This document shows, one piece after another, positions 3,116-7,872 of a stretch of DNA of 21,593 bases; within the stretch, counting starts at the first letter, position 1, and the number at the start of each line of letters is the position of its first letter. The notes under the pieces were generated by a model, which was not told the DNA's origin, searched no databases, and worked only from the letters and a program-made list of their open reading frames with translations. The DNA comes from a virus. The stretch is from IMG/VR virus record IMGVR_UViG_3300008448_000784, positions 1 to 21,593 of that record; one strand, given 5' to 3'. The translations under genes and the position numbers were made by a program.

Positions 3116-3571
3116 TCAGTCTCCGATCCACTTTGAATAATATGTTTCCACCGGCTCCATCTTCAAAAACTGGAACAGCCGCGAAGCGTCCTTATGGAGT
3201 TTAGAACCGTAAAACATACGATGCACACCCCGTCTTTTAGCCTCTTTTTCGACTTCGCGAAAGAGCCTCACGCTGCCAAAACCGCCGCGGACATCTGGGT
3301 GCGTCCAAAAAATATCCATCGTGAGCGTCAGGCACGTTTGGTAGTGCAAGCCTGGAGCTACAAAACCTATGAAATATCCAACCAATCGCCCCGCTTCGCG
3401 CAGCGTTACAACCATAACGCTGCCTGCGGCGTCTCGCGCAGCGTACACGTCGTACTGCGGATCAAGCGGAACTTTGTCTTTGTTTAGTGCCAGTTCCTCC
3501 CAATGCAAAGGCAGCAACGGCTGCGCCTCTTGGATAAACGAACCCCATTCCTCAACCTGTGCGGTCAGCAT
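3116..3571 (-). CDS. GNAT-family N-acetyltransferase
   Basis: A 151-residue protein of typical GNAT size. The family core is visible: a beta-strand and turn VVTLREAGRLVGYFIGF (about 54-70), then strand 4 and the acetyl-CoA pyrophosphate loop DIFWTHPDVRGGFGS (about 86-100, RGGFGS standing for the usual R/Q-x-x-G-x-G/A), then the long helix VRLFREVEKEAKRRG. The C-terminal part LFQFLKMEPVETYYSKWIG matches the usual end of the fold. It should transfer an acetyl group from acetyl-CoA to an amine; the substrate cannot be read from sequence. The start codon overlaps the stop of the hydroxylase gene by one base (TAATG), so the two enzymes are probably made together. It is an accessory gene inside the structural module. 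Confidence 0.8.
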   Translation of the reverse strand: MLTAQVEEWGSFIQEAQPLLPLHWEELALNKDKVPLDPQYDVYAARDAAGSVMVVTLREAGRLVGYFIGFVAPGLHYQTCLTLTMDIFWTHPDVRGGFGSVRLFREVEKEAKRRGVHRMFYGSKLHKDASRLFQFLKMEPVETYYSKWIGD

Positions 3572-4113
3572 TACGCGCTCCTGATGTCAACGATGCAGAC
3601 GATCCTATCATCTGCACTGTTGTTTACAACAGAATGTTTTACGCGGTTGTCAACCCACCACACGTCGCCTTTGCGAAAACCAACAGTTTCATCGCCGCTG
3701 TGGAACAGCGCGCCAGGCAACGATTGAAGCACGATCTGGTAGCGCGTATAAAACTCAGCCGGCGCGCCTTGATCAATGTGCGGCGTAATCTGTCCGCCCG
3801 GCGGCAGTTTGGTCACTATGCACCGGCCAAGCTGGACACCATCAACGCGGTGGAGCAAATCCAGCACCAATCGGCGTAGCGAAGGAAGGGCGCCCCACGC
3901 GGGATACGGCACGGTCTGTATGTCATTAATTACGCCGTTAGGGTCTTTAGGTATATCGTTAAACCACAACCAAATGTCGCTTACGTCGGCGTGCGCGGTG
4001 CCGGGGTGGCGGGTGCGAAGCGTGTTTTGATCCCAAAGATGCGGCTGGGTAGCCAGTTCCCGCAACGCTGGCGTAACATCTACGTTTTCCGCCAGTTTTA
4101 GGAAGTGCAACAT
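3571..4113 (-). CDS. Aspartyl/asparaginyl beta-hydroxylase-like 2OG-Fe(II) oxygenase
   Basis: A 180-residue protein. The Fe(II)-binding triad can be placed as His112-x-Asp114 (motif PHIDQG) and His160 (VKHSVVN), with Arg170 (SADDRI) as the likely 2-oxoglutarate ligand. PGALFHSGDETVGFRKGDVWWVDN lies between them, the usual strand pattern of the double-stranded beta-helix core. This is the layout of the aspartyl/asparaginyl beta-hydroxylase family, which uses oxygen and 2-oxoglutarate to hydroxylate a side chain. The substrate is unknown; a virion protein, a host protein or a small molecule are all possible. It is coupled to the gene before it (TAATG at 4111-4115) and to the acetyltransferase after it (same overlap at 3569-3573). 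Confidence 0.8.
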   Translation of the reverse strand: MLHFLKLAENVDVTPALRELATQPHLWDQNTLRTRHPGTAHADVSDIWLWFNDIPKDPNGVINDIQTVPYPAWGALPSLRRLVLDLLHRVDGVQLGRCIVTKLPPGGQITPHIDQGAPAEFYTRYQIVLQSLPGALFHSGDETVGFRKGDVWWVDNRVKHSVVNNSADDRIVCIVDIRSA

Positions 4114-4448
4114 TAGCTCACCAAACGGCCCGACGCGCGGATGTTGATCGCCGACGCCGTGCCAGCGATGGTCGAGATGAAGCCGTTGTTGGGCAGCACA
4201 TGGCCGACCAGTTCCGGGAAGGTGTAGGTTTCAGCCGGCTGGAGCGTCTTGGTCTTGACGATCAAGTTGTCGTTGCCGGCGCTGCCCGCGGCGGTGATCA
4301 GGTTGACGCTGATCGTCGCCGCCGAGGCGCTGTAGTTGGTCGCCGTGAACTTGTCGATGATCGTCTGCACACCGTTCGAGATGTACTGCGTCGTCTGCGT
4401 GTTCTCGGCGGTCTTGGCCGGGATGATGTTACTGATGTTGACAGCCAT
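4113..4448 (-). CDS. Small beta-rich virion-associated protein, function unknown
   Basis: A 111-residue protein beginning MAVNISNIIPAKTAE. Alternating Ser/Thr/Val/Ile-rich strands (TNYSASAATISVNLI, LIVKTKTLQPAETYTF, GFISTIAGTASAINIRASG) suggest a small beta-sandwich, as in phage decoration or tail-associated proteins. A strong Shine-Dalgarno site (GGAGGG, 4453-4458) lies four bases before the ATG, so it may be made in quantity. It follows the tailspike and overlaps the hydroxylase gene by one base. Similar short proteins occur in many phage structural regions, but I know of no established function. Confidence 0.7.
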   Translation of the reverse strand: MAVNISNIIPAKTAENTQTTQYISNGVQTIIDKFTATNYSASAATISVNLITAAGSAGNDNLIVKTKTLQPAETYTFPELVGHVLPNNGFISTIAGTASAINIRASGRLVS

Positions 4449-4462: not shown

Positions 4463-6376
4463 TTACGCCGTGATGCCGGTCACAAAGACACCGGCACCGC
4501 TAGTGCCAGCGACGCCCGCCGTCGTGTAGTATCCTGGTGATGTGATCGCCACGCTGTTGATCTGCACCTTGTTTGTCGCGCCACCGCTGATGGCGGCTGA
4601 GTTAAACAGGGTGGGGTCGATGGTTGCGCGGTTCAACGCCGTGCCGACGCTAAACACGCCTTGGCCAAATTTGGTCGCAGCGCCATCCACAACCGGTGCG
4701 ATAAAGCAGTCAACAGCAGAGTTGATGTTTACCGCTGCCGATCCGCCGTTACCCGTGTTCGGGTTGTTGATCGTAGCGCGGACTTCGCAGCCTGCCGATC
4801 CGCCGTCGATGACAACCGGGTTGTAAAAATCTTCAACAATGGTGTTGCTGCTAACGCGCACGTTTGATTGCCCGCTGATGTAGATGCCGTAGTTGGTGGT
4901 GCCTGTGCCGCTCAAAAGCTGGATACCGCCGCCAATAGAGACGGAACCAGCGTTTGAGCTTCCTGTCAGCCAAATACCCTTACCGGTGGCCCCCGTGTCG
5001 TTGACCTGCGCGTAACCGCCATCAATAGTGACCATACCCATATCGTTAAGCGCGTTTATGTAAATGCCGTTCTGGCTGCACTGATCCAAAACGCAGTCGC
5101 GGATATGCAAGTTGAGCCGGCTGGCCCCAGAGTTTGCACCAGTTCCATCAACGAGAATGCCGGTGTGCATAGCGGAAGTTTCAAACTTGTCGATGAACAT
5201 ATCCGAGAAGTTGCCGTTTGTGTAGAAGCCTGTCGGGTTGACCAGCACCGGAGCGCCGCCAATGTTGACGCTGCACCGGTTCATAAACAGCGACGGGTTG
5301 CCGCCGGTCAAAATCGCGGGGATGCCTTGCGCCCAGAACCCACGGAAAAAGTCGTTCAGGCCGCCGTAAGAATTTGACCGAAAAACGGCGCAATCATCAA
5401 ACTTGGTGTAGACGGTGCCGTACAGGTAGAAACCGATGATCGGCTCCCACGCAGCAAGATTTTTGAACTGGCAGCTGAGAACGTAGTTGATAAGCCACGC
5501 CTTGACCGCGGTGCTTTCGCTGCCCGATGCAGGCGGCGTCAACGCCGCAGCCCACCGCGCGCAGACGTTTTCAACCGTGATGTTGCGGAAGTAAAAACTG
5601 GTGCCGCCGCCGGGAGGGCTGTCGGGGCCGACCTGAATGACGTTAGCCGCCGTATCAAGAGACAGCACGCGGGTGCCAGTGCCAGTGTTGTAGCCGTCTG
5701 ACATGACGCCGCCGCGCACCGTGCGGTACTGGGTCTGGATTTTCCAAGTGCTGCTGATCCAGTAATCTGCGGTCTGCAAATTAGTGACCGGACACAGCAC
5801 AACGCACGCCTGGAGCGCAGCCAAGTTAGCTGCAGGAACACCACCAGAGTTTGAGTTTACGACAGCGCCGAACCACTCCGGGTAGCCGTTGATGTTGTCC
5901 CACTCGCGCTCCCAGTAGAAGTTGGCGGTGTTGGACGCAACGTAGATGCCCTGAAGCGGATCGCTTGGCGCGGTGCCTGCGCGGCAGATAAAGATGCCTT
6001 CGCGGCCAAGGGTGTTCACAAACACAATGTCGCCGGCAGCCGGCAGGATGGCGGGAAGGTTGGCGATGGTGGTCGTGGTAAACGACGCGATGCCTGGGAT
6101 GTTGTCCATCGTCCACAGCAGAATGTCGGTCGATGTGGTCAGCACAAACTTGTATGTGGTGTTGTTATCCAGCCACACCTGTGACGGCGGGCGCCCGGCT
6201 GAGTTCAGGATGATTGGGTTGGGGTTAGCTGTCACGCCGCTGATAGACGTGTAAGTCGGTGCCGGCGTCGATGTGCCTGCGGCGTAGGTATACAGCTTGC
6301 CGCCCGACAGCGGATCGCCGTTGTTGTCAAAAAATTGCCACCCAGCGCCGCCGAGAGATGAAAGATTAACAGCCAT
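4463..6376 (-). CDS. Tailspike with N-terminal virion-binding domain and beta-helix
   Basis: A 637-residue protein when started at the ATG at 6376, which has GAAGG about eight bases upstream. A longer in-frame start at 6454 adds 26 residues that do not look like tailspike and would overlap the upstream gene. Residues 8-95 (GGAGWQFFDNNGDPLSGGKLY, then PIILNSAGRPPSQVWLDNNTTYKFVL) resemble the head-binding domain of P22-type tailspikes. NGYPEWFGAV (about 160-170) marks the usual entry to the catalytic body. From about 230 to 560 short Gly/Asn-rich rungs (IRDCVLDQCSQNGIYI, VTIDGGYAQV, GIYISGQSNVRVSSNTI) fit a right-handed parallel beta-helix of the pectate-lyase type. It probably recognises and may cleave a host surface polysaccharide. 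Substrate and catalytic residues cannot be assigned. Confidence 0.8.
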   Translation of the reverse strand: MAVNLSSLGGAGWQFFDNNGDPLSGGKLYTYAAGTSTPAPTYTSISGVTANPNPIILNSAGRPPSQVWLDNNTTYKFVLTTSTDILLWTMDNIPGIASFTTTTIANLPAILPAAGDIVFVNTLGREGIFICRAGTAPSDPLQGIYVASNTANFYWEREWDNINGYPEWFGAVVNSNSGGVPAANLAALQACVVLCPVTNLQTADYWISSTWKIQTQYRTVRGGVMSDGYNTGTGTRVLSLDTAANVIQVGPDSPPGGGTSFYFRNITVENVCARWAAALTPPASGSESTAVKAWLINYVLSCQFKNLAAWEPIIGFYLYGTVYTKFDDCAVFRSNSYGGLNDFFRGFWAQGIPAILTGGNPSLFMNRCSVNIGGAPVLVNPTGFYTNGNFSDMFIDKFETSAMHTGILVDGTGANSGASRLNLHIRDCVLDQCSQNGIYINALNDMGMVTIDGGYAQVNDTGATGKGIWLTGSSNAGSVSIGGGIQLLSGTGTTNYGIYISGQSNVRVSSNTIVEDFYNPVVIDGGSAGCEVRATINNPNTGNGGSAAVNINSAVDCFIAPVVDGAATKFGQGVFSVGTALNRATIDPTLFNSAAISGGATNKVQINSVAITSPGYYTTAGVAGTSGAGVFVTGITA

Positions 6377-6450
6377 TACCAATCCTTCTGTTGTGCGGGC
6401 CGGCGCGTAGCGCGATAATAGGCGACAAAGGCATTTTTGTAAATTCCCGA

Positions 6451-7872
6451 TCACAGCCGGGTGGTGGAGTAGCAGTACTGACGCCAGAACCCGCCGCCGT
6501 CGCAGAACGCAAAGAACGTCCCGTCGTTAGGCAGCGTTGTACCGAAGTCAGAACCACCTGGAGCGGATAGCGTGACGTTGCCGCCGCTGACGTTTGAAAT
6601 GGCAAAACCTTCGCCACTGGCGAACCCCGTCGCGGGAAACGTGATGGTAATGCCTGATGTCGTGATGACGATGTTTGTGCCGCTGTCCGCAGCGCCAAGC
6701 GTTTTTGTCGCTGTAATGACGTTCTGGCCGTTTGAGCGGATACCCGGCTTGTTTGACAGATCGGCAAACGAGCCGGACGTGGCCACAGTTGCCAATCCCG
6801 TAACATCGCTGGCAGGAATAGATGGCACCGCAATCGTAACGCTTCCCGCGCCATTTGTAATCGTGACGTTTGCGCCAGCGGTTAGGGTATTGTTCTCCCA
6901 ACGCTGTTGCACCGCGTCATAGATCAGCACTTGGCCCGAAACCGGCGTTCCTGTGCCGTTGATGTATACGTCCTGCAATTCGCCAAGGCGTTCGCTCTGG
7001 ATCATACGCACAAAGATCGAACCAGCACCGCCCGATGCAGCGTTAACAACCACAGCCACAGGCACGTGGATGTTGGGCGCTACAGGCTCGATGTTTGTCC
7101 ATGTGCCGGGCGTTGCGGGGTCGAAGTACAGCAAGTCGCCGTCTGTCCACGTCTCGCCGTAAGGAGTGCCGGTTGTGTTAAAGCCGCGCACAAGACCAAA
7201 GTTAGCGATGTAGCCAAAATCGTTATTGGCGACGGTCTGCGTTGTGACGCCCATCATATATTCAGGTGGTACACTGCCGTCAGCCACAGCCAAGCCAAAC
7301 GTCAGTTTGCCAGATGCGCCCACAACCCCGGTAAACATGACCGGTGTGCCGATGGGTATCGACGAGCCGCTGGTGTTTTTGGCGTAATACAGTGACTCTT
7401 GACCGACTTGCAACACTGCGCCGCCGTAAAGGCCAAGGTCAAGAGTGCCGTCATCTACGTTCCACGCAGTGACACCAGGATTGTACACCACGGGCGGTGA
7501 TGGTGCGGTAGAGTACCCGATAAAACGCGCGTTGTCCTGCTGGACAGAGGCCATCGTGCCAAGCGGTGGCTGCGGGCTGACACCAAACGCCTGCGAAAGA
7601 TCGTCAACCGTTTCGCTCAAAGATGAAACCGCCGATGATGCGTCTGGAGTGGTCTGCACTTCCTGCGCCAGCGACGCCAACATAGCGTCGTATGATGTTA
7701 GCAGCGACGACGTATCAGGCGCGGTTCCGACTTCCTGCTGGCTGGTTTCCGTTGCGGTCAACAACGAAAGAAAAAACCGATACCACTCGCGGCTGATTGC
7801 GCCCGACCGCTCGTCGATCAGCGCGACGCGCGGCGGCGTAAGCTGCGTCGGGTTAAGCGGCGCGAGTGCCAT
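6451..7872 (-). CDS. Tail fibre/needle-like protein
   Basis: A 473-residue protein starting with TGATG overlap on the gp10-like gene. The N-terminus (MALAPLNPTQLTPPRVALID, then SREWYRFFLSLL) is a familiar phage tail-protein leader and is followed by a Ser/Thr/Ala-rich helical segment (about 37-95). A beta-rich domain follows at about 155-290 (YYAKNTSGSSIPIGTPVMFTG, DGDLLYFDPATPGTW). Fibre-like repeats come next (about 320-400: SGQVLIYDAVQQRW, GANVTITNGAGSVTI, DVTGLATVATSGSFADLSNK), then a C-terminal domain with many Gly and aromatic residues. Its place after gp10 is that of the P22 tail needle gp26. Domain content looks more like a fibre or hub carrying a beta-structured tip, so the exact role is open. 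Confidence 0.65.
   Translation of the reverse strand: MALAPLNPTQLTPPRVALIDERSGAISREWYRFFLSLLTATETSQQEVGTAPDTSSLLTSYDAMLASLAQEVQTTPDASSAVSSLSETVDDLSQAFGVSPQPPLGTMASVQQDNARFIGYSTAPSPPVVYNPGVTAWNVDDGTLDLGLYGGAVLQVGQESLYYAKNTSGSSIPIGTPVMFTGVVGASGKLTFGLAVADGSVPPEYMMGVTTQTVANNDFGYIANFGLVRGFNTTGTPYGETWTDGDLLYFDPATPGTWTNIEPVAPNIHVPVAVVVNAASGGAGSIFVRMIQSERLGELQDVYINGTGTPVSGQVLIYDAVQQRWENNTLTAGANVTITNGAGSVTIAVPSIPASDVTGLATVATSGSFADLSNKPGIRSNGQNVITATKTLGAADSGTNIVITTSGITITFPATGFASGEGFAISNVSGGNVTLSAPGGSDFGTTLPNDGTFFAFCDGGGFWRQYCYSTTRL

Follow-up and report, generated by a model that had tools for sequence, protein, structure and literature searches.

A hydroxylase gene and a gene for a GNAT-fold protein form what appears, from comparison of sequences, to be a real two-gene cassette, conserved and mobile and attached to the first DNA ejection gene; the hydroxylase is its new element. 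The window, i.e., the whole stretch of DNA that was analysed, is an IMG/VR virus record of 21,593 bases and corresponds to a P22-like podovirus late operon, which is encoded on the minus strand. A literature search, of incomplete coverage, found no published description of the hydroxylase–GNAT pair as a unit. The features of the locus are in Table 1. The reading frames of both genes and their stop-start overlap agree exactly with an earlier note on this DNA, and so does the context that it gave, between the tailspike side and the DNA-ejection genes.

Table 1. Genes and junctions of the hydroxylase–GNAT locus in the window
Feature	Position	Strand	Evidence
Beta-helix tailspike-like gene	6454-4463		Sequence context
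111-aa conserved protein, directly upstream of the hydroxylase	4448-4113	-	Sequence
PF05118 Fe(II)/2-oxoglutarate hydroxylase, 180 aa	4113-3571	-	Pfam, invariant residues, AF2, Foldseek
One-base TAATG overlap, hydroxylase stop and GNAT start	3571	-	Sequence
GNAT-fold protein, 151 aa, phrog_1249	3571-3116	-	PHROG match, fold
gp7-type DNA ejection protein, 327 aa, hydrophobic Ala/Val/Gly N-terminal segment	3114-2131	-	phrog_598 1.6e-34, N-terminal profile
Second ejection-type protein, gp20-like position	2117-297	-	Partial matches to virion lytic enzyme and tape-measure families

The base common to both open reading frames lies in the sequence ...GCGTAATGCTG..., where the hydroxylase TAA overlaps the GNAT ATG. 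The 111-aa gene is joined to the hydroxylase likewise, the TAA of the former and the ATG of the latter having one base in common, and the ejection gene begins one base past the GNAT stop, with a GGAGA just 5′ of it. These one-base overlaps, the one-base gap and the GGAGA suggest that the 111-aa, hydroxylase, GNAT and ejection genes are set up for coupled translation. Late expression of the pair is predicted from its place inside this translationally chained structural operon. Upstream of the pair, the tailspike and fibre genes (window positions 4463-7872) are hypervariable among relatives between conserved flanks, a pattern of receptor-module exchange. The 111-aa protein (4113-4448) is up to 95% identical in relatives that have an unrelated neighbouring tailspike, and it has a homologue in phage DSL-LC05.

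The hydroxylase matches PF05118 (Asp_Arg_Hydrox) at 50.3 bits, the curated Pfam cut-off being 22.6. The iron triad H112-x-D114...H160 and, for 2-oxoglutarate, R170 (and R124) are conserved in 23 relatives that are 34-84% identical to the window protein. H112, D114, H160 and R170 are invariant also in phages PfAn1, DC33 and ctXG1253, and this holds in relatives down to ~30% identity. The AF2 model is confident (pLDDT 94.6), and the nearest solved structures, by Foldseek (E down to 8e-10) and by sequence profile, are proline cis-4- and 3-hydroxylases and human AspH. Conservation, model and fold search all place the iron ligands and the 2-oxoglutarate-binding Arg on a jelly-roll fold, as in known PF05118 hydroxylases (the AspH catalytic domain, proline 3- and cis-4-hydroxylases). 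The hydroxylase-like identity and intact His-x-Asp...His and Arg residues described in the earlier note are thus borne out, and the protein is very probably an active enzyme. It differs from the known enzymes in that it consists of the catalytic domain alone, with ~17-24% identity to the nearest solved structures, and resides in a phage operon. Neither sequence nor model has the TPR domain that precedes the catalytic domain in AspH proper, and the model is without a long hydrophobic helix. The gene is under purifying selection, with a median dN/dS of 0.10 (pairwise, many pairs being related). Weak hydroxylase matches in Itty13 and BUCT-ZZ01 lie in unrelated regions where no ejection genes are recognisable. 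Cyanophages carry 2OG-Fe(II) oxygenases of the 2OG superfamily, but these belong mostly to other Pfam families, occur as multiple scattered copies and have proposed metabolic or DNA roles (PMC3037559, PMC9602691). ctNMl277 (L257, positions 5054-5665) has a different 2OG-Fe(II) oxygenase (PF13759, phrog_81) within its structural module, a little ahead of the coat gene.

The second protein was correctly named a GNAT protein. Its model (AF2 pLDDT 88.9) matches PDB GNAT structures with E ~2e-8 and TM ~0.7-0.8 (Foldseek), and its sequence matches phrog_1249 'acetyltransferase' at 9e-8; it lies just under the Pfam PF00583 cut-off (18.6 vs 20.7 bits), which several relatives pass, e.g., those of DC33 (L002) and L006. 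The canonical acetyl-CoA loop, Q/R-x-x-G-x-G/A, is altered in the window protein, which reads R95-G-G-F98-G-S100. R95 is kept without exception; at the fourth position most distinct proteins have Phe and about one fifth have Gly, such that the R..G.G loop is kept in 12 of 63 and the canonical glycine is replaced in ~80%. At the sixth position the window has Ser, where 90 of 91 related loci have Gly. Since most members have a degenerate CoA-binding loop, it is doubtful that the GNAT protein is catalytic. However CoA binding may persist, with R95 invariant and G100 nearly so in relatives. Outside of the loop, residues H23, E26, Y43, G65, Y66, H76 and D86 are invariant even in distant members. 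This gene too is under purifying selection, with a median dN/dS of 0.12 (pairwise, many pairs being related, with one or more outlying pairs up to 1.95).

Among viral loci fetched by GNAT sequence alone, the hydroxylase is present in 79 of 80; the exception, L094, keeps the GNAT gene and has no hydroxylase. The two genes are adjacent and codirectional in 93 of 111 non-redundant loci. In 85 of 92 such pairs gp7 is directly next; the remaining one of the 93, L105, has an adjacent pair with gp7 divergent. In four more of the 111 loci, contig ends leave only the hydroxylase visible. The one-base overlap between the two genes recurs in 74 of 93 scored pairs, on contigs that are partly non-independent. 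It should be noted that the locus sets were fetched by one or the other gene; the figures therefore presuppose that gene, and related phages are counted in them. The two genes are thus not independently scattered. Relatives are also found in bacterial genomes, of Paraburkholderia, Sphingomonas, Janthinobacterium, Achromobacter and Roseateles.

Cultured carriers of the adjacent pair are PfAn1, which infects Pseudomonas fluorescens, and DC33 (ORF8-ORF7), which infects Limnohabitans. In PfAn1 (L001, 4850-6986) the tail accessory and head closure genes run opposite to the rest of a late operon that is otherwise codirectional, and the DC33 record (PQ492659.1) is filed under Inoviridae despite its TerL and tailed-phage genome. 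The DC33 hydroxylase and GNAT are 39% and 34% identical to those of the window. Unlike the window pair, they are located between TerL (ORF9) and the portal, or head-to-tail connector (ORF5), away from any tailspike (PMC12195039 for the ORF assignments). The published account mentions the two genes separately, as one metabolic gene and one acyltransferase, and proposes no functional link (PMC12195039). The earlier note had placed the pair between the tailspike side and the DNA-ejection genes: the two genes do occur together and beside a gp7-like gene almost everywhere, but linkage to the tailspike was rejected, as loci that retain the pair swap tailspikes freely and DC33 has the pair elsewhere.

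Several loci depart from the common arrangement. In ctXG1253 the hydroxylase is found without GNAT, directly before a gp7-type gene (phrog_21132, 9.5e-49). The usual GNAT place beside the hydroxylase is taken by a diverged phrog_1249 GNAT in L154, L156 and L161 (read in L154, L158 and L162), a cupin-like protein replaces GNAT beside the hydroxylase in L164, and an extra gene is inserted between the two in L163. In L127 the hydroxylase is near a terminase-like gene, with no GNAT and no gp7 nearby. Together with L094, these exceptions indicate that each gene is separately exchangeable or losable, the slot before gp7 being preserved. In L145 (8477-9403) the GNAT and gp7 frames are in pieces, which represents sequencing error or decay.

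The slot was also read in a sample not chosen by the pair, i.e., annotated phages found by gp10 similarity, nine of which were read. The pair is absent from these nine. The slot before gp7 holds a phrog_12032 cupin-like protein in DSL-LC05, ctn9Y15 and Vibrio 1.211, and a GNAT-type protein in Pam1 (phrog_1249) and, by weak matches only, in PAE2 and PBR31; the remaining phages have nothing comparable there. DSL-LC05 has a gp10 75% identical to that of the window and a nearly identical gp7 core, with neither gene of the pair. A gp7 core of the window type thus does not require the pair. Proteins of 'tail fiber' PHROGs are found directly before gp7 in L256 (12414-12887), L262 (13221-13670), L261 (10507-11067) and L164 (8540-8923); that of L164 is also a Pfam cupin, and such proteins are alternative occupants of the slot to GNAT.

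In a close relative of the window, L011, the identities of gp10 (86%), hydroxylase (85%) and GNAT (92%) are at similar levels. In L132, L133, L028 and L080, gp10 is at 25-38%, the hydroxylase at 58-61% and GNAT at 67-77%; for loci with gp10 at 25-40%, pair identity is 56-77%. This similarity of the pair where gp10 has diverged suggests that the two genes probably move horizontally together, as a cassette. In the nearer clade GNAT identity tends to fall as that of the 111-aa gene rises (rho -0.57), which points to recombination between the hydroxylase side and GNAT as well.

The protein encoded downstream of the pair is the candidate client. A hydrophobic Ala/Val/Gly-rich N-terminus is displayed by 91.5% of 106 distinct downstream proteins vs 19% of hydroxylase and GNAT N-termini, figures that are approximate in that some starts are mis-chosen. 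The gene that follows the relocated DC33 pair encodes 107 aa and scores 16.8 bits with a gp7 N-terminal profile, where the best of 200 shuffles scores 7.2. The same profile scores the ctXG1253 protein at 15.1, the Pam1 protein after GNAT at 48.4 and P22 gp7 at 23.4, and these matches, like that of DC33, exceed what composition would give. Two of three Zobellviridae downstream proteins are weakly above their own shuffles, whereas the profile picks up neither T7 gp14 nor the L004 protein. GNAT alone precedes proteins with a gp7-type N-terminus in two of the three Zobellviridae tested and in Pam1. These phrog_1249 acetyltransferases share with the window GNAT the family, a similar size and the slot directly before the first ejection gene, but have no adjacent hydroxylase. 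In alignments of gp7 from phages with and without the pair, no residue specific to hydroxylase-bearing phages is evident by eye. Linkage to the gp7-type gene, of which DC33 with its relocated pair is the clearest instance, favours an ejection protein as the target. If the neighbour is the client, gene order would make its N-terminal ~90 residues the relevant segment.

It is proposed, tentatively and at somewhat less than an even chance, that the pair is a late assembly or modification cassette for the first ejection protein, and above all for the N-terminal segment of that protein. Synthesis of the hydroxylase, the GNAT protein and the downstream gp7-type protein would coincide during infection of the cell. 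The GNAT-fold protein would act on the newly made ejection protein, by acetylation of its N-terminus or of a lysine in the N-terminal segment, or alternatively would bind it as a pseudo-enzyme chaperone. Either action would keep the hydrophobic N-terminal helix of the ejection protein from entering the host membrane ahead of its packing into the virion. The hydroxylase would hydroxylate a residue of the ejection protein or of its complex. The client and both chemistries are putative here, and gene order alone cannot name the substrate.

Rather unlikely is a reading in which only the GNAT-fold protein has a part in ejection, as an assembly factor without catalysis in the T7 gp13/P22 gp14 slot, with the hydroxylase an added enzyme that has another virion or host target. 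The slot is filled by GNAT-fold or small proteins in many podoviruses (Zobellviridae, Pam1, PAE2 and PBR31, and by position T7 gp13 and P22 gp14), and both the degenerate CoA loop and the survival of GNAT after hydroxylase loss in L094 are consistent with such a role. The earlier note stated that P22 carries no such pair there; P22 does lack the hydroxylase, but the slot directly before P22 gene 7 is filled, by gene 14 (151 aa), as T7 gene 13 (138 aa) precedes T7 gene 14, and both are like GNAT in size and position. However, nothing significant relates GNAT to P22 gp14 (PF11039) or T7 gp13 (PF11090) by Pfam, BLASTP or hhalign, with profiles so shallow that a distant homology may escape them. 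A shared place is supported and membership in those families is not. Also against a role for GNAT alone are the retention of the hydroxylase in all but one of the GNAT-fetched loci, its occurrence directly before gp7 without GNAT (L003), and the conserved R95 and G100, with which CoA binding may persist.

Less probable still is a role on the host, in which the hydroxylase would be LpxO-like and change envelope lipids together with the acetyltransferase, or the two would act on metabolites as auxiliary metabolic genes. Lipid A hydroxylases are among the PF05118-type enzymes, and the solved folds nearest to the two proteins comprise some free-proline hydroxylases and some acetyltransferases of aminoglycosides or polyamines. 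However, the pair keeps a fixed place in the late operon, ahead of ejection-type genes, in lineages that have diverged and have different bacterial hosts, and the hydroxylase is a small single catalytic domain whose model has no long hydrophobic helix. A metabolic role is the published reading of DC33 ORF8, which was placed under metabolic potential (PMC12195039). Modification of another virion part, such as the 111-aa protein or an upstream tail fibre, with the adjacency of gp7 as inherited order, is improbable. In its favour, the 111-aa gene shares one base with the hydroxylase and often accompanies it in conserved form. Against it, many pair-bearing loci show no 111-aa gene, a homologue is present in DSL-LC05, which is without the pair, and tailspikes and fibres vary freely.

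The preferred reading, service to the first ejection protein, bears on the means by which the membrane-active ejection proteins of short-tailed phages stay soluble and competent ahead of infection. A cassette tied to the N-terminal segment of that protein offers a narrow target, and the 107-aa protein of DC33 is the smallest candidate client. Genes now filed as metabolic cargo or as hypothetical would gain a possible function. In its fullest form, which is a long way from likely, podoviruses would hydroxylate and acetylate the first ejection protein, in the shared N-terminal ~90 residues, before packaging, and a mobile two-gene cassette would thus provide a post-translational maturation for DNA delivery.
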